DNA of 41,956 nt from a virus: positions 1-41,956 of IMG/VR virus record IMGVR_UViG_3300013093_004796; one strand, written 5' to 3'. The notes beneath the pieces were generated by a model. The model had not been told where the DNA came from and made no database searches. It saw only the letters and a program-made list of their open reading frames with translations. This document shows positions 11,653 through 41,676 of this stretch, one piece after another. Both the position numbers and the translations under genes were made by a program. The first letter of the stretch is position 1, and each line of letters begins with the position of its first letter.

Positions 11653-12030
11653 ATGTCTAGACAAAATTGCAATATCGTGTTAGATTCTCACATGGGAAGA
11701 TTTATAGTTTTACAAGAATTAACAGGCGACGAAATTTGGGTGTTACCAAAGGAATTGCAGCGGTGGGATCGTCGTTATCAGCCAGAACCATGGCCAAATG
11801 ATCTGTTTCCATACTATGTAGATTGGTATTGGGGTAACGACAGATGGAGTTGGAAAACAAAAACTGTCAAAATACATCTTCGCAGATTTGTAGAACAAAA
11901 ATGCCTGGGCGATGTAGCTGTAGGACCTGTGTCAGCAGATAACACCGATAATACCAGTAGACTTTGGTTTGAGCATGAAGGAGATCAAGTGTTGACAAAA
12001 CTTACCTGGAGCGAGTATGTATTACCATGA
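11653..12030 (+). CDS. Hypothetical protein, Trp-rich
   Basis: The 125-residue product is not recognised. It is rich in Trp, Arg and Asp (YYVDWYWGNDRWSWKTK) and appears to be a small beta-rich protein. Its stop overlaps the ATG of uvdE (ATGA), so the two are translationally coupled. The start is uncertain: ATG 11653 avoids overlap with the preceding small gene, but a TTG at 11632 is also in frame. Confidence 0.55.
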   Translation: MSRQNCNIVLDSHMGRFIVLQELTGDEIWVLPKELQRWDRRYQPEPWPNDLFPYYVDWYWGNDRWSWKTKTVKIHLRRFVEQKCLGDVAVGPVSADNTDNTSRLWFEHEGDQVLTKLTWSEYVLP

Positions 12031-13064
12031 CAATACATCGCATAGGATTTTGCTGTAAATTTCTTGAAACAGCGGATGTTAAAAAATCCAAACAAATAAA
12101 AGAGTTGGAAAGACTGCTCAATACCAGCAGTACCACTGTGGCATGGCTGAATCGTCAGCCTCGTGATGTTGCCGAGGTAAAACTTTGGTCAATAATGGAG
12201 CATAACTTGGCCAGTGTACAACGCATGTTGACACGAGTCAGTCAATTTCCCAAGCAAATGCGTATGGTGAGGCTCAGCAGTGATTTGCTGCCCATGTACA
12301 CTGAGCCTACCTATGGTTATTTTTGGCAACAAGATGCTGTGCAAAAATATTGTACCCGCGAGTTTGCCAAAATTGGTGAATTTGCTCGTGCCAATGACAT
12401 TAGATTGAGTTTTCATCCTGGGCAATTTGTAGTACTCAGTTCCATTGACGACGACATAGTGTGTCGCAGTATTGCTGAGTTTGAATATCATGTTGATATG
12501 GCACGAATGATGGGTTACGGTCAGTCATGGCATGATCATGGATTCAAGATCAACGTGCACATAAGCGGTCGTAGAGGTCCACAAGGCATTATAGATGTGC
12601 TGGCACGCCTAACACCTGAAGCACGCAATCTTATAACCATTGAAAATGATGAAAACAGCTGGGGATTAGAGGACAGCTTGGTGCTGGCCAAGCATGTAGC
12701 ATTGGTGTTGGATGTTCATCACCATCTAATAAACAGTGGCGGTGAGTATATTCAGCCAAATGATGCTCGTTGTGAGAGAATTTGGAAAAGTTGGCGAGGA
12801 ACCAGACCAGTGATTCACTATAGCCTCAGTCGTGAGGATGTATTGACCGGTCATGATCCTGAGGTTCTACCAGATGTTCGTCAATTGCTAGACAATAAAA
12901 TTATGAACAAAACAAAACTGCGTGCTCACAGTGATGATGCGTGGAATATCGCCAGTAATCGCTGGGTTCTACAATTTCTGCCACATGCTGATATTCAGGT
13001 TGAAAGCAAATGGAAGAACATCAGCAGCCACAGGCTTTGGCAACAGATGCAGGCTGGTGCATAA
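12027..13064 (+). CDS. uvdE: UV damage endonuclease UvdE
   Basis: UvdE nicks DNA 5' to UV photoproducts and some other lesions. It is a TIM-barrel metal-dependent enzyme related to endonuclease IV. This 345-residue protein shows the family motifs in order: IGFCCKF (residues 6-12), RLSSDLLPMY, RLSFHPGQFVVLSS with a metal His, INVHISGRRGP, TIENDENSWG with a metal Glu, LVLDVHHH with metal Asp/His, and PVIHYSLSR. T4 uses the unrelated DenV glycosylase for the same task. The gene is coupled to the preceding small gene by ATGA. Confidence 0.92.
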   Translation: MTIHRIGFCCKFLETADVKKSKQIKELERLLNTSSTTVAWLNRQPRDVAEVKLWSIMEHNLASVQRMLTRVSQFPKQMRMVRLSSDLLPMYTEPTYGYFWQQDAVQKYCTREFAKIGEFARANDIRLSFHPGQFVVLSSIDDDIVCRSIAEFEYHVDMARMMGYGQSWHDHGFKINVHISGRRGPQGIIDVLARLTPEARNLITIENDENSWGLEDSLVLAKHVALVLDVHHHLINSGGEYIQPNDARCERIWKSWRGTRPVIHYSLSREDVLTGHDPEVLPDVRQLLDNKIMNKTKLRAHSDDAWNIASNRWVLQFLPHADIQVESKWKNISSHRLWQQMQAGA

Positions 13065-21994: not shown

Positions 21995-23674
21995 ATGTAT
22001 ATAGATGCTTTTTATGAACGTGAAAAAAATAAAATTTTAGTTGTTGAAAGAGACAAAACACATAAACGACGTTATACGGAGTATCCTACAAAATATGTAG
22101 CATATTGGACAGGTGCGAGAGGCAAAGTTCCAAATATCTTTGGAGAATTATGCGATAAATTTTCTACTACAAGAATCAAAGAATTTACTCGTGAAATTAA
22201 TATGCTGCCCAAGGACAGACTTCACGAGACAGATATTAATCCAATTTTCCGTTGTTTGTATGAGAATTATAAGGATGTAGCACCTCCGCCTCTACATGTT
22301 GGGTTCTTTGATATTGAGGTGTCGTTTGACCCAGAACGTGGATTCTCAAGTCCAGAAGATGCATTCTCACCTATTACTGCTATTTCTCTATATCTCAATT
22401 GGCTAAACAGAAACTTCACTATGGTTATTAAGCCAAACGATATGAATTGGGATACTGCACAGGAAATTGTAGATCGGTTCGAAGACACTATCTTGTGTGA
22501 AACAGAAAAAGAACTCTTGGAAATTTTTCTATCATTGATTGATGATGTTGATATTTTAAGTGGGTGGAACTCAGAAGGCTTTGATATTCCCTATATCCAT
22601 AACAGAATTGTTCAGATATTGGGCAAAGAGGAAACACGTAAACTCTGTCTCTGGGGTAAGTTTCCGAAACGCCGAGAATACGAGATGTATGGCAAGAGCA
22701 TGGTGACATTTGATCTTGTTGGTAAAATTCACATGGACTATCTGCAATTATATCGCAAAAACACCTATCATGAAATGCACAGTTATCGTTTAGATTTCGT
22801 GGGTGAATATGAAGTTGGTGAAAAGAAAATACATTATGAAGGCAGTCTAGACAGTCTCTATAACAATGATTTTGAAAAGTTCATTGAATATAACAGACAG
22901 GACGTGATGTTGCTGGTAAAGATTGATGCCAAAAATAAATTCATTGAATTGAGCAACAATCTGGCTCATGAAAATTGTGTGTTATTTCAAAATACCCTGG
23001 GTTCTGTGGGGCTGATTGATCAGGCTATTGTAAACGAATGTTGGAACCTGGGGTTTGTTGTTCCAAATAGAAAGCGTGACAACTATCACAACAAAACACA
23101 AGAAGAATCTGATGAAGATGAAATCAGCATCAGTGGTGTTGTCGGTGCCTATGTTGCTGATCCCAAAGAGGGCATGCATGATTGGATTGGTGGAGTTGAT
23201 ATCAATTCACTATATCCTTCTGCAATTCGTTCTCTCAATATGAGTCCTGAAACAATCGTTGGACATATTCGTCCAGAAGCCACTGACAAACTTATCATGA
23301 AGCGTATGCGAGACGAGAAACGAAGTTTTGCAGATGCATGGAATGGTATGTTTGGCACTCTTGAATATAACTGGGTGATGAATCGTGAGATGAATCCAGT
23401 TACAGTAGATTTTGAAGATGGCTCCACTGTAACTTTAAGTGCCAATGAATTGTATGATCTGATATTCAAGAGTGGTAAAAATCTTATTTTAAGTGCTAAT
23501 GGAACTATTTTTACTGGAGATAAAAGGGGAATCATCCCTGGGCTTCTGGAAAGATGGTATCAAGAGAGGTTAGAATTAAAGCATAAACAAAAAATGGTTG
23601 GAAAATTGTCATCTGGTATATCTATACCAGATGACATGATGGACGATGTTATGAAGCATTTGTCATTTGATTAA
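21995..23674 (+). CDS. 43: DNA polymerase B, N-terminal part (gp43A)
   Basis: The 559-residue product contains the T4 gp43-like N-terminal and exonuclease domains and the first part of the palm. Exo I is VGFFDIEVSFD (D106, E108), Exo II is SGWNSEGFDIPY (D197), Exo III is YNRQDVMLL (Y299, D303), and motif A is VDINSLYPSA (D402). It stops before motif B. The remaining polymerase is a separate gene at 25081. The last eight codons overlap the 3' end of the reverse-strand endonuclease gene, so they may come from the insertion and not from the ancestral polymerase. GAGG lies upstream of the start. Confidence 0.93.
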   Translation: MYIDAFYEREKNKILVVERDKTHKRRYTEYPTKYVAYWTGARGKVPNIFGELCDKFSTTRIKEFTREINMLPKDRLHETDINPIFRCLYENYKDVAPPPLHVGFFDIEVSFDPERGFSSPEDAFSPITAISLYLNWLNRNFTMVIKPNDMNWDTAQEIVDRFEDTILCETEKELLEIFLSLIDDVDILSGWNSEGFDIPYIHNRIVQILGKEETRKLCLWGKFPKRREYEMYGKSMVTFDLVGKIHMDYLQLYRKNTYHEMHSYRLDFVGEYEVGEKKIHYEGSLDSLYNNDFEKFIEYNRQDVMLLVKIDAKNKFIELSNNLAHENCVLFQNTLGSVGLIDQAIVNECWNLGFVVPNRKRDNYHNKTQEESDEDEISISGVVGAYVADPKEGMHDWIGGVDINSLYPSAIRSLNMSPETIVGHIRPEATDKLIMKRMRDEKRSFADAWNGMFGTLEYNWVMNREMNPVTVDFEDGSTVTLSANELYDLIFKSGKNLILSANGTIFTGDKRGIIPGLLERWYQERLELKHKQKMVGKLSSGISIPDDMMDDVMKHLSFD

Positions 23675-24908
23675 TCCAATCAGATTCCCATATAGAAATA
23701 ACTGTGTAACCAAGGTTTTCTAATATTTTTTTCTTTTCTACAGTTGCTGTGTATAATTCGCCAAAAGAGGTTTTGGTTACCCTGTTTATACATGTAGGTT
23801 TGTATTTTTCTGGGTTGCCATGCCAAAAATCTCCATTGAACTCATAAACAGTGTTAATTGTTGGGTTAAATCCATCTACTAAAAACCATTTTTTATTATC
23901 AATTTTTATTTTGTATCCCCGTATTGGAACAGATAGGCTGTCTAACCACATTATTTCCAATTTTGATTGTTTATGTGAACACCTTGGACAACCGCTTCCT
24001 CGTAGATGAACACACGGCGACTGATGAAACCTCCCATGTTGCCTACAAATTATTACTATAGGTGTTTTATTATTCTTATAGATAATTTCTGAATAATCAT
24101 AAGTGGAGCCATGAACATATCTTGCTTCGTTTATAAAGTCATTAGACTTTTTTCTAATTTTGTCGTAGGCACATTTAGCACAACCACTTTTGCGTAATGT
24201 CGTTGCGAATGCTTCAAAGTGTCCATGTTTTTTGCAAAAGAAAGAAATTTTTTCATTTGTGGTTTTATATTCAGAAACTAAAGTAATATCATCCCCGTGT
24301 CTAGATAAAGTGTTTTCATAAAAATTTTTTGTTCTTTTTTCTAATTCACATTTTTTACAATCGCCGCCGCCGGTAATATGCCTTCTCGCAAGGGGTGAAA
24401 ACTCCCCATGTGTTTTGCAAATTACTATAACTCTTTTGTGATGCCCCGCATAAACTGTTTTACTATAATCATATATATCACCGTGTTTTTCTATAGATTG
24501 ATTAATAAAACTTTCTGTATGCATATGCATACACTCTGGACATCCATTGCTACAATATAAATGTGCGTCTGGCGTATAATAATAAACAATATCGTGTTTT
24601 TTACAGCGTATTTTTATAATTTTCCTACTGTGAATATAAACAGACTCTGTGTAATCATACACATCATCCCACTTTTCTTTTGCCTGTGATTTCCATTTTT
24701 CTTCTCTTTCACATAATATACAACCACGACGCTTATTAAGAAAAATACTAGGCCACACAGAAAATTCTCCATGACGACAACATATAATTTTAACATTTTT
24801 TCTACTACTTTGGTATTTCACCAGAGAGTAGTTATATTTGTCTCCATATACCTGACTGGACCACTCTATAAATTGTTGTGTATCTATATCTCTTAAATTG
24901 AAAAACAT
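23649..24908 (-). CDS. Homing endonuclease, Vsr-like, splits polymerase
   Basis: The 419-residue protein has five Cys/His repeats of about 50 residues, each with Y-[DN]-Y, a V.I.C..HG.F strand and a C-terminal C..C pair, probably zinc-binding DNA-recognition modules. The final 95 residues are a nuclease domain with DGFNPTINTVYEFNGDFWHGNP and ISIWESDW, which resembles Vsr/EDxHD-type phage homing endonucleases. It shares all these features with the gene at 27165. It lies antisense between the two parts of the polymerase gene. The ATG at 24908 is preceded by GAGG. The frame also has a GTG at 24926. Confidence 0.8.
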   Translation of the reverse strand: MFFNLRDIDTQQFIEWSSQVYGDKYNYSLVKYQSSRKNVKIICCRHGEFSVWPSIFLNKRRGCILCEREEKWKSQAKEKWDDVYDYTESVYIHSRKIIKIRCKKHDIVYYYTPDAHLYCSNGCPECMHMHTESFINQSIEKHGDIYDYSKTVYAGHHKRVIVICKTHGEFSPLARRHITGGGDCKKCELEKRTKNFYENTLSRHGDDITLVSEYKTTNEKISFFCKKHGHFEAFATTLRKSGCAKCAYDKIRKKSNDFINEARYVHGSTYDYSEIIYKNNKTPIVIICRQHGRFHQSPCVHLRGSGCPRCSHKQSKLEIMWLDSLSVPIRGYKIKIDNKKWFLVDGFNPTINTVYEFNGDFWHGNPEKYKPTCINRVTKTSFGELYTATVEKKKILENLGYTVISIWESDWINQMTNAS

Positions 24909-24973
24909 TTTGTGCCTCACTTTCACATTTTTTGGTAAATATTTCCCATGCTGGGTTACCTCATTTACCTAGA

Positions 24974-25016
24974 ATGGTTGGGTCTGCCAGGACCGCGAAC
25001 CATAAACCTATTTACA
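24974..25016 (-). promoter_or_regulatory. Promoter and 5' hairpin of endonuclease gene 1
   Basis: On the minus strand TGTAAATA (25016-25009) is followed by a stem: ATGGTT (25003-24998) with AACCAT (24979-24974), a GCG/CGC bulge and an inner GGTC/GACC stem. The predicted +1 is at the first base of the stem. The element matches, with compensating changes, the one before the second endonuclease gene (27056-27098). Confidence 0.6.
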
Positions 25017-25080
25017 AACGATGTAATATTTTATATAATCAATATATGAAACTGCTCACACATTCTTGAAGAGGTGAATA

Positions 25081-27057
25081 ATGATAGACGTGGATGAAAT
25101 AAATGCAGCCATAACAGCAAGAGATTCAAAAAAAGTTGCTAGTCTAATAAAAAAACATGGATTAAAAATAGAAAATAACAAGATAACTGCTGATGTAGAA
25201 ACAGTTAAAGCAAGTGACTCATTTTGGGATCAACGCCAATTGATTAAGAAAATCCTCCTTAACTCGTAAAATATTGCGACATAAACGGGTAACTGTTTAA
25301 TGAAAACCGCTCTAATTGCTGGAAACTCCTTGTCAAGGACAATCAGCAGCCAAGCATCGAAAGATGAAGGTTCAACGACTAGATCGAAAGATCGTAGATC
25401 CAAGTGGATCGAAACGGGCGGCATCCATTTCCTGGATGGTGATATAGTCTCCTCTGTGTGGCAACATACAGCAGCACGTAATGGTGCGGAATATGGCTTA
25501 ACGAGCATATTTGAAGATTTGGTATATGGGGCACTGGGCAATCCTGGATCAAGGTTCTTCGATGCAAGAGTAGCACAAAGCACTACTCTCAGTGGTAGAT
25601 GTATTGTGAAGCATATGGGATCTAAAATAAATGAAATAATTACAGGTGACTATAATCATACTGGACTTGCTTGTATCTATGGTGATAGTGTAACTGGTGA
25701 TACTTTAATAAGAACTGATTCCGGTGAAATAACCATCGAACAACTGTACAACGAATGTGTTGAGCATTGTATTGCTCACGGCAAGGAATATGGTCTATGG
25801 TCACAGGCAAAGGTAATTGGATTCAACTCTCACGAAATGGAATCTGTGCCAAGTTCTATTGAATATGTTATGCGGCATAAAACAAAAAAGAAATTGTATC
25901 GTATTACTACTGAGAACGGAAAACAAGTTACTGTTACCGAAGACCACAGTGTTATGGTTGATAGAGATGGGTTTTTGATAGAAGTAAAACCAAATGACAT
26001 TCTTGCAGGGGATAATATAATTACTTTGACAAACAATATGGATACAGAATACACACGGGTAAAATCTATAGAATGTCTTGGTGAAATAGATGATTATGTC
26101 TATGACCTATCCATAAAAAATGGTGACCCAATATTTTTTGGTAATGATATCCTATTAAAAAATACCGACAGCATTTATTTCTCAGCATATCCCGTGATGA
26201 AAGATCTGCCAGATTTTAAAGATTTTGAATGGACTAAAGAAAACGTCACAGATTTATATGACAAAATAGGTGAAATTACCAACCAAAGTTTTCCAGAGTT
26301 TATGAAACAAGCATTTAATTGTCCTGAAAAAAGTGGTGCCATTATCCGTGCTGCACGAGAACTTTGTGCCATTAAGGGTTTGTTTATCACCAAGAAACGC
26401 TATGCTGTGTTAATTTATGACAAAGAAGGCAAACGCAAGGATGTAAATGGCAAGCGTGGTGAAATCAAAGCCATGGGACTAGACCTGAAGAGGAGTGATA
26501 CAAGTAAATTTATATCCGATTTTTTATCCTTGGTTCTTACAGACGTTCTAAGCGATGTTTCTCGCGAAGACATTTTCGGTAAGATACAAGATTTTCGTAA
26601 ACAATTTTCCCTACAACCAAGTTGGGAAAAGGGGTCACCAAAGAGAGTTAATAATTTAACTAAGTATGCTAATATCAAACAAAACCAAGAAACTGGTGAT
26701 GTTTTTAGTAAAAATTCGGATAAGAAAAAAACTATTCCTGGGCATGTGGTAGCGTCACTTAATTATAACAAATTAAAATCAATTTTTAATGATAATGAAA
26801 GCATGACGATACAAGATGGATTTAAAATTATTGTATGTAAATTAAAACCTAATAATAGATTTGGGATGAATTCGGTAGCATATCCAGTTGATTTAATACA
26901 TATTCCAGATTGGTTTAAACAATTGCCATTCGATGACACATTAATGGAAGAAACATCAATAGATCGTAAATTAGAGAATTTATTAGGGGTCCTAAAGTGG
27001 GATTTGGCTAAGACTAAATCAGAAAATCAAGCATTTTCTGATTTATTTGAATTTTGA
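25081..27057 (+). CDS. 43: DNA polymerase B, C-terminal part (gp43B)
   Basis: The coding sequence is 25081-25267 joined to 25523-27057. GAGG before the ATG shows it is translated separately from the N-terminal part. Residues 1-62 end in IKKILLNS; splicing restores motif B as KILLNS-LYGALGN. Exon 2 reaches ACIYGD and, after a 159-residue intein, TDSIYF, restoring motif C (YGDTDS). The thumb domain follows, with KKRYAVLIYDKEGK and GLDLKRSDTS. The spliced product is 573 residues, 414 after intein removal, so the two parts total about 970 residues, compared with 898 in T4 gp43. Activity requires association of the two polypeptides. Confidence 0.85.
25268..25522 (+). other. Group I intron without ORF in polymerase motif B
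   Basis: The upstream exon ends AACTCGT (last T 25267) and the intron ends with G at 25522, joining TCG-T|TA-TAT (Ser-Leu-Tyr). Core elements are visible in order: P, AATTGCTGGAAACTCC (from 25316); Q, AATCAGCAGCCAAGC (from 25342); R, GTTCAACGACTAGA (from 25372); S, GATATAGTCTCC (25441-25452). The R and S sequences match subgroup IA introns of T4-like phages. P1 can form by TCGT (25264-25267) pairing with GCGA in the intron, with a U-G at the splice site. No endonuclease is encoded. Any open frame in it is a side effect. Confidence 0.9.
25687..26163 (+). other. Mini-intein at polymerase motif C
   Basis: A 159-residue in-frame insertion splits the catalytic YGDTDS as YGD|intein|TDS. Block A is SVTGDTLI with Ser1, block B is TEDHSVMVDRDGF (TxxH), block F is DDYVYDLSI, block G is FGNDILLKN followed by Thr+1. 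There is no room for a homing endonuclease domain (no LAGLIDADG blocks). The penultimate residue is Lys in place of the usual His, which some active inteins tolerate. The Ser/Thr nucleophile pair fits an active intein. Confidence 0.88.
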
Positions 27058-27098
27058 TAAATAGATGTGGTCCGCGAGTCTCTAACCTCTCCGACCAC
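27056..27098 (+). promoter_or_regulatory. Promoter and 5' hairpin of endonuclease gene 2
   Basis: GATAAATA (27056-27063) overlaps the polymerase stop codon. It is followed by GTGGTC (27067-27072) paired with GACCAC (27093-27098), a CGC bulge and an inner GAG/CTC stem. Compared with the element before gene 1, the first and last pairs differ by compensating changes (A-T to G-C; T-A to C-G), and TCTA follows the stem in both. Confidence 0.6.
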
Positions 27099-27164
27099 TC
27101 TAAACTATCAAGGAATATAGTTCAGCATTATCTGTATTTACTTGATTAAATCAAGGAAAAACAA

Positions 27165-28226
27165 ATGACTAAAACTGAAATTTTTATTAAAAAAGCGAAA
27201 TTAATTCATGGCGACAGATACATTTATACAAAAACTCATTATATCAACGCGACATCCCCAGTAGTTATACAGTGTAAGCATGGTGATTTTTTACAATCAC
27301 CAACGCAGCATTTGCGTGGACGAGGATGTAAACAATGTGGTTTTGAAAAACATAGCCTATCAACTGATGAATTTATAAAATTGGCTAAAGAAAAACACGG
27401 AAACTTTTTTGATTATTCTAAAACAAATTATGTAAACAGTTACACACCTGTGACTATTATTTGTCCAACTCACGGGGATTTTTTGATGATCCCAAACAAT
27501 CATCTAAGATATAATTGTCAAAAATGTTATCATGAAACATTAAAATATAATGCAGAAGATTTTTTACGCTTGGCTAACGAAAAACATGGCGAACATTATG
27601 ATTATAGTTGTGTTATTTACAATAACTCTCGTCAAAAAATAAAAATAATCTGTCCAGACCATGGTCCGTTTTATCAGCAACCAAGATTACATTTGGCAGG
27701 ACAACAGTGCAGAACATGCGTCAGAACTCTAACTACGGAACAATTTATTCAAAAAGCAAACATTATACATAATGATAGATATGATTATTCATGTTCTGTT
27801 TATAATTCTGCCAGGTCAAAAATTAATATAAAATGTCATATTCATGGAATTTTTGAACAAAATGCAAGTTCTCATTTATGCGGGGTGGGGTGCCCAGCGT
27901 GTCATGGAAATATCAGCAGGGGAGAAACCACATGGTTAGATAGTATTGGGGTTACTGTGCGTAATAAAGTTTTAACTATGATATGTGGTAGAAAATTCAA
28001 AGTTGATGGATATAATCCAGATACAAAAACAATATATGAATTTAACGGGGATTATTGGCATGGTAATCCCAAATATTTTGACCCTGGTGACATCCATCCT
28101 AAAAGAAAAATTACTTTTGGCGAACTATATCAACAGACTTTATTGAAAAAACAAATATTAGAAGAAAACGGATACAAAGTTGTGTCAATCTGGGAATCAG
28201 AATTTAATAGTAGTCCGATTGATTAA
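27165..28226 (+). CDS. Homing endonuclease, Vsr-like, after polymerase
   Basis: The 353-residue protein is a paralogue of the gene at 23649, with four Cys/His repeats in place of five (HGDRYIYTKTHY..., HGNFFDYSKTNY..., HGEHYDYSCVIY..., HNDRYDYSCSVY...) and the same nuclease domain (VDGYNPDTKTIYEFNGDYWH; VSIWESEF). AAGGA precedes the ATG. It sits between the polymerase and the clamp genes without splitting either, as free-standing homing genes in T4-like phages do. Confidence 0.8.
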   Translation: MTKTEIFIKKAKLIHGDRYIYTKTHYINATSPVVIQCKHGDFLQSPTQHLRGRGCKQCGFEKHSLSTDEFIKLAKEKHGNFFDYSKTNYVNSYTPVTIICPTHGDFLMIPNNHLRYNCQKCYHETLKYNAEDFLRLANEKHGEHYDYSCVIYNNSRQKIKIICPDHGPFYQQPRLHLAGQQCRTCVRTLTTEQFIQKANIIHNDRYDYSCSVYNSARSKINIKCHIHGIFEQNASSHLCGVGCPACHGNISRGETTWLDSIGVTVRNKVLTMICGRKFKVDGYNPDTKTIYEFNGDYWHGNPKYFDPGDIHPKRKITFGELYQQTLLKKQILEENGYKVVSIWESEFNSSPID

Positions 28227-28288: not shown

Positions 28289-28498
28289 ATGGCTACCAAA
28301 ACCACCATCGGTAAAATTTACGAACCAGAAGAACTGAAAATATTAGTTGACGCATTAAATGGTGCTCCTTCATACTTAAGTAAGCGATTTATATTAAAAC
28401 ACCTGTGTGGGTGGAGTGATGAGATGATTGCAGAAAACATGAGAATGAAACAAGAGGAAGAACAACAAATGAGAATTGGAGAAAAGACATGGCGTTAA
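28289..28498 (+). CDS. Small protein before sliding clamp
   Basis: The 69-residue protein is helical, with a hydrophilic C-terminus (MRMKQEEEQQMRIGEKTWR). The segment YLSKRFILKHLCGWSDEMIAEN recalls the C-terminal region of T4-like portal proteins (SKKWIRKN.L..SD.EI), but the similarity is short and a portal fragment is not otherwise expected here. AAGGAA lies 8 bases upstream of ATG. It overlaps the clamp gene by ten bases. Confidence 0.55.
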   Translation: MATKTTIGKIYEPEELKILVDALNGAPSYLSKRFILKHLCGWSDEMIAENMRMKQEEEQQMRIGEKTWR

Positions 28499-29232
28499 AA
28501 GACTATATCAAGGATTTGACTACCTATGTCACCCCGACTGGTTTCTTTGAAAAAATCAAAGTAACTGCCACTAAAAAAGATATCATTATTGAAAGCATGG
28601 AGAAAGAAAAAGAAGTTATCCTAAAGGGTAAATTCACCAAGCCACTTGATGATCTTGATGGAGAATTTGGTTTGAGCAATCTTGGATTGCTGTATACAAT
28701 TTCTCATGATCCAGAATTCAACAGCCCAGATAGTAAAATAACTATCACTTATGAAACCAAGGCTGGTGAAAAGGTTCCAACAGAACTTGCCTATCAGAAC
28801 AAAAGCAAAAGTCATATCAATTATCGTTTTATGTCAAAGCAACTATTGCCAGATCAGCCAAAGTTTATCGAGCCAAAGTGGGATGTGGTTATCACACCCA
28901 GCAAGGCTAATATTCAACAGTTTGCCTGGGCCGCTGCTGGACTTTCAGCATATGAACAATATTTTATTCCTCGTATTCAAGATGGTAATATGAAGTTTTT
29001 TATCGGTGAAGCAGATGCTGCTACACAACGTGGTGGTGTAGTATTTGCCACAGACAGAACTGAAACTTTTGCCAGTGATCACAAATGGAAGATTGCACAG
29101 GTTCTTGGTATTCTCAAAATTGCCGATACCTGTGATTGTGAAATGGCTTTTTCCATCAAGGGTGCTATTCAAATTACACTAAACACTGGTGTTGGAAATT
29201 ATCGTTATATTTTTCCAGCAAAAGTTCGGTAG
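28489..29232 (+). CDS. 45: Sliding clamp (gp45-like)
   Basis: The clamp tethers DNA polymerase to the template and, in T4, also activates late transcription. The 247-residue protein fits the T4 gp45 family in length (228 in T4) and in its pattern of two beta-alpha-beta domains, each ending in a long beta strand, with an N-terminal helix (LKDYIKDLTTYVTPTGFFEKIKV). ATG lies inside the preceding small gene with GGAG upstream. Position right after the polymerase gene supports the call. Three gp62/44 loader genes are not in the window. Confidence 0.8.
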   Translation: MALKDYIKDLTTYVTPTGFFEKIKVTATKKDIIIESMEKEKEVILKGKFTKPLDDLDGEFGLSNLGLLYTISHDPEFNSPDSKITITYETKAGEKVPTELAYQNKSKSHINYRFMSKQLLPDQPKFIEPKWDVVITPSKANIQQFAWAAAGLSAYEQYFIPRIQDGNMKFFIGEADAATQRGGVVFATDRTETFASDHKWKIAQVLGILKIADTCDCEMAFSIKGAIQITLNTGVGNYRYIFPAKVR

Positions 29233-36925: not shown

Positions 36926-38298
36926 TGGTGAACTACTGTTAGTCTAAAGGCCAACAGATTCCTTCCAACGAAGGAATGATTCCTGCTTCAAACGATACAT
37001 GTCTAGATGATACGGCCGTATCACCCCCGACAGAGGTATCTCCACAGGCGTGAATTTCCGCAGTTCCTGCGGTATTGATTTCTTTAATTCCCCAATTGAG
37101 TATGTTGATGGCTGCATTGAGATCTCTATCCATGACATTATCACAATTGGAACACACATATGTTCGTTCAGATAAAGTCATGGCTTTTTTAGATCCACAG
37201 CAACTACAGGTCTTGGTGCTAGATGCCCACCTGTTGATCTTGTGCAGCAAGCCATTATTCCACTCTAACTTGTAATCCAGTTGAGTGATGAATTGGTACC
37301 AGCCTTGATCCTGAATGGCTTTGGCCAAATTCCTGTTTTTAATCATACCTGCGATATTGAGGTCTTCCACTATCACCACTTGATAGTTCTTGGCTATCGA
37401 ACTGCTCAATTTGTGATGCCAGTCTAATCTTGTGTTGCGTATTTTACGATGCAACTGTGCCACTTTGATTCTGGCTTTGTGCCGGTTTTTGCTGGTTTTT
37501 TGTTTGCGAGCCAATTTACGCTGGCGTTGTTTCAGTTTTTCTTGTTTGCTTCTGTATATGCGTGGTGTTTCTGCCACTTCTCCATCACTGGATACAAAAA
37601 ACTCTTTGAGACCAAGATCAAGACCAACACAATCGTTTGTTGATATATGACCTGGCACCTGACCCAGTTGTTCTTGATCTTGTTTTGCCAAACAACAAAC
37701 ATACCACTGATCAACATCCAGTTTGATTGTAATAGACAGCAATCTACCCTTGATTTTGCGATGATATACCCACTTGACTTTGCCCAGCTTGGGTATTGAA
37801 ATTTTATCTTGCCACCACTTGATGTGTTTTGTATTGGTTTGACTTATTTCAATCCCTGTTTTATCTGTGTGTTTGGATTTGAATTTGGGGAATCCACGCT
37901 TGTGTCTGAAGCAGTTTTTCATTGCTGTGTCCAGATCAAACACCTTATTTTGTAGGGCATGTGCTGGTGCATCCATCCACTCGTGATCTTTTTTCATTTG
38001 TGGTAGTTTGCGCTTCATCTCAAATCCAAAGGTGAATTTCTTTTCCCGTTGATATTGTTCTATGTTGGCAGCGAGTAATTTGTTCCATACAAATCGCAAT
38101 TGCCCCATCCAACCAACAAGAGTTGTTTCTTGCTCTGTTGTTGGATAAATGCGATATTTGTATGCAATCATCGTCATAAATATATTTAGTAGTTTATATT
38201 AAAAAGGTACTAATATGTATCAAAAAAAACAATATAATCAAGGCAAAGTCGCCTCTCCTATCTGTTGGTCTAAAGACAACACAGATTTGCGATGCGAA
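36926..38298 (-). mobile_element. IS605-type element with tnpB only
   Basis: Bounded by the right-end hairpin (36938-36955, GTTAGTC...GGCCAAC) and the left end (TTGCGATGCGAA, 38287-38298) with a GTCTTTAGAC hairpin. It matches the short copy at 18719-19094. No TnpA transposase is present, so movement would need one in trans. The element faces opposite to its neighbours, between genes at 36908 and 38324, without breaking either. Confidence 0.85.
36939..38177 (-). CDS. tnpB: TnpB RNA-guided nuclease
   Basis: TnpB cuts DNA using a guide from the element's right end and the omega RNA it encodes. The 412-residue protein has all three RuvC residues: D187 (GLDLGLKEF), E271 (VEDLNIAGM) and D352 (MDRDLNAAIN). 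The zinc ribbon C324-x2-C327 and C342-x2-C345 is complete, so it appears active. The N-terminal YKYRIYPTTEQE wedge domain and a Lys/Arg-rich region are present. The last 60 codons overlap the likely omega RNA scaffold. ATG lies at the predicted +1 of an ACTAAATA late motif. Confidence 0.92.
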   Translation of the reverse strand: MTMIAYKYRIYPTTEQETTLVGWMGQLRFVWNKLLAANIEQYQREKKFTFGFEMKRKLPQMKKDHEWMDAPAHALQNKVFDLDTAMKNCFRHKRGFPKFKSKHTDKTGIEISQTNTKHIKWWQDKISIPKLGKVKWVYHRKIKGRLLSITIKLDVDQWYVCCLAKQDQEQLGQVPGHISTNDCVGLDLGLKEFFVSSDGEVAETPRIYRSKQEKLKQRQRKLARKQKTSKNRHKARIKVAQLHRKIRNTRLDWHHKLSSSIAKNYQVVIVEDLNIAGMIKNRNLAKAIQDQGWYQFITQLDYKLEWNNGLLHKINRWASSTKTCSCCGSKKAMTLSERTYVCSNCDNVMDRDLNAAINILNWGIKEINTAGTAEIHACGDTSVGGDTAVSSRHVSFEAGIIPSLEGICWPLD

Positions 38299-40380: not shown

Positions 40381-41676
40381 ATGGCTAATGTACCTCTTGC
40401 TACTAAACGCAGTCCTGTTGAGACAAAAATTAAACAATCTAAAATCAAGCTATTGTTCAATCAGCCTTTTTTTGGTACCCTGCTTATGAATTTACCAATG
40501 GTTGATGCCACAGATGCTGGTTGGTGTCCAACTGCTGCAGTAGATGGTCGTTATATTTATTATAATCGAAATTTTTTGGAGAAATTGAGTGTAGATGAAG
40601 TTCAGTTTGTACTCTGTCATGAAATTCTACATGTGGCGTTTGACCATCTAGGTCGTCGCAGTCATCGTGATCCAAGTTGGTGGAACATGGCAAATGACTA
40701 TGTAATCAATGCTGCACTTATCAAAGATAAGATTGGCAAAATGCCAACTGAACGTGTTACTGTTCAAGATACTGATGCAAGTGGTAAAAAAACCACTTCT
40801 CAGCGTGTTGGTCTGTATGATGCCAAATATGAAGGTTGGACTAGTGAAGCTGTCTATGATGATCTTGAAAAACGCAAGGTCAAAAAAGAATTGACTCTTG
40901 ATGTGCATCTGGAACTGGGCAAGGATGGAAAATCAGCCGGAGGACAGAACACAACTAAAGACGGTATACAAATTCCTGGCTTGAGCGAAGAAGAACTTAA
41001 AAATCTACGCGATGAGATCAAATCTAAGATTTTACAAGCTGCCAACGCCGCCGCTGGAAAAATGCCATCTAGCTTACAGCGACTGATTGATGATCTTGTT
41101 GAAAGCAGGGTCAATTGGCGAGATTTGCTACAGCAGAGTATACAAAGTTGTTTGGTGGATGATTTCACCTTTATGCGACCAAATCGCAAGCATATGTATG
41201 GTGGCATTTTTATGCCAACGCTCAAAAAAGACGAGACTATTGATATTCAAATTGCCATTGATATGAGTGGTTCAATTTCAGATGCAATGGCCAAAGATTT
41301 CCTCAGCGAGGTTTGGGGCATGATGCAGATGTACAATGACTTCAAGGTTGGCATTGTGTGCTTTGATACTCAGGTGTATAATTACAAAGAGTTTACCAAA
41401 GACAATGAAGATGAACTGCTGACATATGAATGTAAAGGTGGTGGCGGTACTGACTTTGACGCAGTTTGGAATTTTTGGAAATCTCAAGAGATTGAGCCAA
41501 AATTGGCTGTATGGTTCACAGATGGATTCCCAAATTCCGCATCTTGGGGACCAGAAAATTACTGTGACACCTTGTGGGTGATAACTGAAGGTTATAAAAC
41601 CCGTGTTCGCCCGCCATGGGGACGCTGGGCCTATTTCGAACATGGCAAGGGCGTTGAAGAAACAGGTTCTGCCTGA
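40381..41676 (+). CDS. DUF2201-type metallopeptidase/VWA protein
   Basis: The 431-residue protein has an N-terminal zincin-like domain with HEILHVAFDH (H80, E81, H84, possibly H89) and a C-terminal von Willebrand A domain with the MIDAS motif DMSGS (about residue 303) and GGGGTDFDAVW. These are the two halves of the DUF2201 family. The central acidic, Lys-rich linker (about residues 160-225) includes a helix with Asn/Ala runs. It pairs with the MoxR-type ATPase gene before it. The protein may bind metal or act as an adaptor. Protease activity is unproven. Confidence 0.85.
   Translation: MANVPLATKRSPVETKIKQSKIKLLFNQPFFGTLLMNLPMVDATDAGWCPTAAVDGRYIYYNRNFLEKLSVDEVQFVLCHEILHVAFDHLGRRSHRDPSWWNMANDYVINAALIKDKIGKMPTERVTVQDTDASGKKTTSQRVGLYDAKYEGWTSEAVYDDLEKRKVKKELTLDVHLELGKDGKSAGGQNTTKDGIQIPGLSEEELKNLRDEIKSKILQAANAAAGKMPSSLQRLIDDLVESRVNWRDLLQQSIQSCLVDDFTFMRPNRKHMYGGIFMPTLKKDETIDIQIAIDMSGSISDAMAKDFLSEVWGMMQMYNDFKVGIVCFDTQVYNYKEFTKDNEDELLTYECKGGGGTDFDAVWNFWKSQEIEPKLAVWFTDGFPNSASWGPENYCDTLWVITEGYKTRVRPPWGRWAYFEHGKGVEETGSA

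Follow-up and report, generated by a model that had tools for sequence, protein, structure and literature searches.

Several elements are known to accumulate in gene 43, the DNA polymerase gene of T4-type phages. In the cultured Aeromonas phages Aes508, Aes512, and Aes517, the annotated order is gp43A, a GIY-YIG gene, gp43B1 (with an intron and an N-intein), a VSR endonuclease gene, and C-intein-gp43B2; the group I intron has been confirmed in Aes508 and Aes512, and the endonuclease gene in the fracture of Aes517 is annotated as truncated. The locus described here lies in the virus record IMGVR_UViG_3300013093_004796, a fragment of about 42 kilobases (kb) whose full 41,956 bases are called the window below. 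It encodes a family B polymerase of the T4/RB69 gp43 type with the same finger-tip break holding an endonuclease gene, a group I intron at motif B, an intein at motif C, and a second endonuclease gene (VSR type in the Aeromonas phages). The original prediction, made from the letters of the window, considered it unusual to find all of these in one gene. This is so among the loci surveyed here, but the same combination is annotated in Aes508, Aes512, and Aes517.

The two arrangements nevertheless differ in detail. The fracture endonuclease of the window is Vsr-like and encoded on the reverse strand, whereas that of the three Aeromonas phages is GIY-YIG. The window's intein is contiguous and sits at YGD/TDS, while theirs is split and sits at TD/S. 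The second endonuclease gene follows the polymerase gene in the window instead of lying inside the intein, and the intron is inserted a few codons upstream of their site. Unlike these phages, the window virus, which infects bacteria, belongs to a jumbo-phage-related clade; no nucleotide-level relatives of the window were found among phage records.

Other phages have parts of this arrangement. Aeromonas phages 25 and 44RR have 43A and 43B separated by the same break; in phage 25, a GIY-YIG gene occupies it and 43B contains a group I intron. Phage 25 gp43A and gp43B have been reported to copurify and to be active (PMC2988022). Neither phage has an annotated intein, and the endonuclease family differs from the window's. 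The split polB of the Agrobacterium jumbo phage Atu_ph07 is broken at the same place in the fingers, but its gap has no endonuclease gene, and both intron and intein are absent. The PolB proteins of the Pseudomonas jumbo phages MIJ3 and PA5oct and the Salicola phage SCTP-2 carry an intein at motif C, as in the window, with no fingertip break and no intron seen. MIJ3 PolB carries a split intein (PMC6892783); in MIJ3 and PA5oct it is divided by an endonuclease gene and located at YGDTD/S, unlike the window's, while the SCTP-2 mini-intein has its YGD/TDS site and LKN end in common with the window's (PMC6892783). Nor does the window resemble a Dassa-type fractured gene, with a split intein at the break: its break lacks intein motifs and its intein is contiguous.

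Did an endonuclease gene split gene 43, or did it invade a gene that was already split? A 2010 review left the question open (PMC2988022). The relatives of the window bear on it in two ways, since endonuclease genes of unrelated kinds prove to dock at this one break and, in one lineage or more, an intact-type gene apparently took up the break along with endonuclease gene and intron in one piece. The nearest known process is collaborative homing, which pairs a free-standing endonuclease with a group I intron lacking an open reading frame (ORF) (PMC3984707, PMC10448857). The likeness is an ORF-less intron and a nearby free-standing endonuclease gene that apparently move together; the differences are that a gene fracture travels along here and that we infer, rather than observe, cleavage at the intron site. 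Support for such homing comes solely from two block transfers, L286/L285 and L002/L282 (L numbers denote polymerase loci of relatives).

The best explanation of the locus as a whole, and one we consider probable, is a two-polypeptide gp43-type polymerase with a self-removing intron and intein, in which the fracture together with its resident endonuclease gene and the intron makes up a homing cassette. The polymerase would be made as two polypeptides, broken in a finger-tip loop. The mRNA of the C gene would shed the group I intron by self-splicing, the C protein would shed the intein in the same manner, and the mature halves, of 559 and 414 amino acids (aa), would associate as one enzyme. The endonuclease probably cleaves uninterrupted, intronless alleles near the motif B intron site; repair would then copy the whole block, and the recipient would gain endonuclease, intron, and break at once, by collaborative homing. 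The broader proposition is that gene fracture is itself mobile: one cassette makes an intact polymerase gene two-gene and intron-bearing in a single event, unrelated endonucleases alternate in the break, and the window's intein has been re-fused. For this we judge the chances to be about even. The pile-up of elements in gene 43 is already known from cultured phages, and the evidence that a cassette can carry the break is the newer part; new in the window are the reverse Vsr-like occupant, the contiguous intein at another site, and the different viral lineage. If confirmed, this would show how an essential replication enzyme can acquire several subunits in a single step, and it would provide naturally occurring polymerases in two or three pieces whose split sites are mapped.

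Layout of the two-gene polymerase

The polymerase is encoded by genes at 21995-23674 and 25081-27057, identified by their Pfam domains and a phmmer match to RB69 gp43 (E 1e-59). Motifs A (DINSLYPS), B (KKILLNSLYG), and C (YGDTDS) are kept, as are the exonuclease and polB domains. The features of the locus are as follows.

21995..23674, forward: polymerase N gene, 559 aa; exonuclease, palm motif A, and first half of the fingers; matches RB69 gp43
23649..24908, reverse: endonuclease gene 1, within the fracture; DUF723-type zinc-binding repeats and a C-terminal Vsr-like nuclease (EDxHD type); PHROGs 681/559
25011..25039, forward: weak sigma70-like promoter candidate just 5' of the C gene; TTTACA-17-TATAAT, 11/12 consensus match
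25081..25267, forward: polymerase C gene, exon 1; second half of the fingers to LLNS and the first base of a Leu codon
25268..25522, forward: ORF-less group I intron, 255 nucleotides (nt), inside the Leu codon of motif B (LLNS-L-YG)
25523..25686, forward: polymerase C gene, exon 2, up to IYGD; protein identity 78-87% to close relatives
25687..26163, forward: mini-intein, 159 aa, from Ser1 to LKN, then T; no endonuclease domain; Pfam Intein_splicing E 6e-14
26164..27057, forward: polymerase C gene past the intein, TDSIYF to the stop; DNA_pol_B E 4.5e-7; 64-69% identity to close relatives
27165..28226, forward: endonuclease gene 2, a paralogue of endonuclease gene 1; the polymerase gene precedes it and a small ORF follows; PHROGs 559/681

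All four interruptions that the original prediction had proposed (a reverse endonuclease gene, an intron, an intein, and a second endonuclease gene) are thus found where it placed them. The N gene, with Pfam matches to DNA_pol_B_exo1 (E 5.6e-20) and DNA_pol_B (E 7.6e-10), stops past motif A, within the fingers, and endonuclease gene 1 overlaps its 3' end by 26 base pairs. As had also been proposed, the second part of the polymerase has its own start, ATG 25081, preceded by AAGAGGTG, with GAGGTG as Shine-Dalgarno sequence. Homologous C-gene starts occur in L001, L002, L012, L052, L071, and Atu_ph07. The region around the promoter candidate was not enriched as a whole over shuffles in the promoter scan. 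Without intron and intein, the C protein has 414 aa.

The intron matches Rfam Intron_gpI (RF00028) over 25258-25471 with 92.9 bits (cut-off 50, E 9e-23). Comparison with intronless relatives sets its splice sites at T25267/A25268 and G25522/T25523, and its removal restores KKILLNS-L-YGALGN, matching uninterrupted relatives. The predicted junction LLNS/LYG was therefore right about the restored protein but not about the exact site, which falls inside the Leu codon (T/TA) and not between codons. In the fold, 25 of 80 pairs are changed on both sides among the introns of six relatives. By its conserved core and covarying helices the element is a group I intron, and self-splicing is predicted.

The finger-tip break and its occupants

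Phosso, GAP32, and L128/L131 are intact relatives whose fingers are long, and in them an insert separates the two finger helices. A structure model of L131, which aligns with RB69 gp43 at an overall Z of 39.5, places the break at the finger tip, in loop 564-576 of this insert; helices 552-563 and 577-596 flank the loop. The same loop is broken in the window, L001, L002, L012, L052, L071, L098, L170, L282, and L285-287, and in the cultured phages Atu_ph07, Aeromonas 25, and 44RR. The N tails run to 23-40 aa and the C leads to 43-53 aa (ten sequences compared). The survey covered 197 deduplicated polymerase loci, 14 broken and 183 unbroken, and all breaks lie within the finger insert. A sequencing error, which the original prediction had named as a possible refutation, is ruled out, as is a pseudogene, because the gap is 1.4 kb long and the break recurs with open frames in these 14 loci. 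Has the break simply been inherited from a single origin? Vertical descent alone is unlikely, because in trees of the N and C parts the broken genes occupy four or more positions; repeated origin cannot everywhere be told apart from transfer.

What sits in the break varies, with at least five endonuclease kinds, or none, across the relatives:

Window: DUF723/Vsr-like gene, reverse
L002 and L282: HNH-type gene (PHROG 655), forward
L052, L285-287, and L098: NUMOD3/Vsr-like genes, forward in L052, reverse in L285-287, reverse and with the gene broken in L098
L071 and L170: DUF4379 gene, reverse
Aeromonas 25 and Aes508: GIY-YIG gene
50AhydR13PP: HNH gene (annotation)
L001, L012, Atu_ph07, 44RR, and AhMtk13a: no endonuclease gene

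Because the same break can lack an endonuclease gene or hold unrelated ones, on one strand or the other, the gene now in the window's break may be a late arrival that need not have made it. Hence the claim that the polymerase is split by this gene stands as far as its location goes; that it did the splitting does not follow.

Endonuclease gene 1 is taken to start at ATG 24908, which has the better ribosome-binding site, with GTG 24926 as a possible alternative. Its AlphaFold model has repeated units of zinc-binding type ahead of a C-terminal nuclease domain, and residues 312-419 resemble Vsr (1cw0, Z 8.9) and I-Bth0305I (3r3p, Z 6.9). The catalytic-type residues are invariant. On the strength of this model, the product is a putative homing endonuclease with a Vsr-like fold. 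Endonuclease gene 2, foreseen behind the polymerase gene and located there, is 37% identical to gene 1.

Movement of break, endonuclease gene, and intron

Three observations suggest that a single homing cassette carries the break, the endonuclease gene, and the intron: varied endonucleases occupy the same break, the intron occurs only in broken genes of the survey, and the middle of L286 has apparently been replaced by a block close to that of another virus. The intron is present in 8 of the 14 broken genes and in 0 of the 183 unbroken ones, counts uncorrected for shared ancestry. L286 is 96.2% identical upstream of the block and 99.4% downstream of it to L107, an unbroken, intronless, short-finger gene. 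Its middle 1.58 kb is instead 96.8% identical to L285, whose flanks match those of L286 at only 76.6% and 83.1%. The block contains the finger tail with its stop, the reverse endonuclease gene, the start of the C gene, and the intron; one of its edges is at the finger start and the other 8-10 nt beyond the 3' splice site of the intron. From these alignments, an intact-type polymerase gene appears to have gained the break together with endonuclease gene and intron in one block. A second, independent case is L002 versus L282, in which the cassette is 86-99% identical per 100 nt and the flanks about 70%; L283, found in a different sample, repeats the L282 form, the two showing 1 difference over 3608 nt. 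For the window itself, homing of the cassette is proposed by analogy with these two pairs.

Several points weigh against a homing cassette. (i) The L286 metagenome contig ends 22 nt past YGD, where the unbroken L100 from the same sample also ends, and assembly chimerism is for this reason the main alternative for L286. (ii) A block could also move by plain recombination, no endonuclease being needed. (iii) The search turned up no close donor for the cassette of the window itself; for its endonuclease genes, gene 1 included, the relatives found are only about 40% identical. (iv) In the Aeromonas phages, the fracture looks fixed, with intron and endonuclease gene variable. (v) The counts linking intron to fracture take no account of shared ancestry.

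The rival explanation that survives best is that the insertions were independent, a pre-existing break serving as a safe landing site, and that the pile-up reflects accumulation, not a travelling unit. The differing endonuclease kinds at one break would fit this, as would the breaks without any endonuclease gene and the Aeromonas phages, which keep the break while its occupant changes. So would the window and L001, whose introns are 93% identical while the neighbouring finger exons are only 61% identical, from which it follows that the intron can move apart from the rest. On the other side, L286/L285 and L002/L282 each transferred break, endonuclease gene, and intron as a block with the same edges, and no unbroken gene of the survey has the intron. 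Independent insertion is accordingly possible, though we favor the cassette.

Might the gene instead be dead, decaying under repeated insertion, with the phage replicated by another polymerase? The three interruptions and the break, at active-site motifs, might suggest so, and another polymerase may lie outside the 42-kb fragment. However, all the pieces are open and well conserved, motifs A, B, and C are kept, the splice junctions are clean, the C gene is provided with a start codon and a ribosome-binding site, and the same layout occurs in many lineages and in cultured phages, all of which makes decay very improbable. Least credible of all is a break mended into one full-length chain by RNA trans-splicing or a finger-tip split intein. 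In its favor, fractured phage genes are known in which split inteins splice in trans, and the motif C inteins of the relatives are split. Against it, no intein motifs were found at the end of the N gene or the start of the C gene, an Rfam search of the window gave no second group I intron that could splice in trans, the C gene comes with an ATG and Shine-Dalgarno sequence of its own, and intact relatives have finger sequence that matches the tails.

The motif C intein and other genes of the window

The intein expected at YGD/TDS is present there, and its removal joins IYGD to TDSIYF. It has a Ser codon at 25687, block B TEDHS (TxxH), a C-terminal Asn, and T at +1. Its penultimate residue is Lys and not the usual His, likewise in the LKN end of the SCTP-2 intein, while the split relatives have HN. 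By its residues, the element is a class 1 (Ser1) intein in all but that His, which is usual, not universal. Inteins at the same site in the close relatives L002, L052, L105, and L135 are all split. Their C-intein genes begin with MD..YT or similar, and the window's intein holds an internal MDTEYT at the equivalent place. In the intein tree, the window's falls among these same-site split inteins, with weak internal support (37-55). The simplest reading is that the contiguous intein is a former split intein whose endonuclease gene was lost and whose halves were re-fused in frame, mainly because the MD..YT start is retained and all four close relatives are split.

The split inteins seem to have a history of their own. 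L091-L093, L298, L299, and L303 are unbroken and intronless, yet they carry an N-intein that starts like that of L002 and the same 1443-nt gap, which suggests that the split intein and its endonuclease gene move apart from the fracture cassette. In L135 (also L136 and L142), the intein is split at YGD/TDS by a gap of merely 861 nt, so that its endonuclease gene has probably been shortened or has decayed. Among polymerases free of inteins, the broken L001, L098, and L282 have YSDTDS instead of YGDTDS at motif C; Atu_ph07 (L083) has YNDTDS, and the intact Phosso (L082) has YADTDS. A change of the Gly beside the intein site might protect against intein homing.

Elsewhere in the window, an IS605 OrfB/TnpB-like protein of 412 aa is encoded in reverse among forward genes (36939-38177; Pfam OrfB_IS605 and Cas12f1-like_TNB; PHROG 506). 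Two further forward genes, at 40381-41676 and 12027-13064, encode endonuclease-family proteins (PHROG 1314, HNH endonuclease; PHROG 8420, endonuclease). The 247-aa protein encoded at 28489-29232 (forward; PHROG 12062, unknown function) is likely the sliding clamp, because its position matches that of the annotated sliding clamp gene of Phosso.

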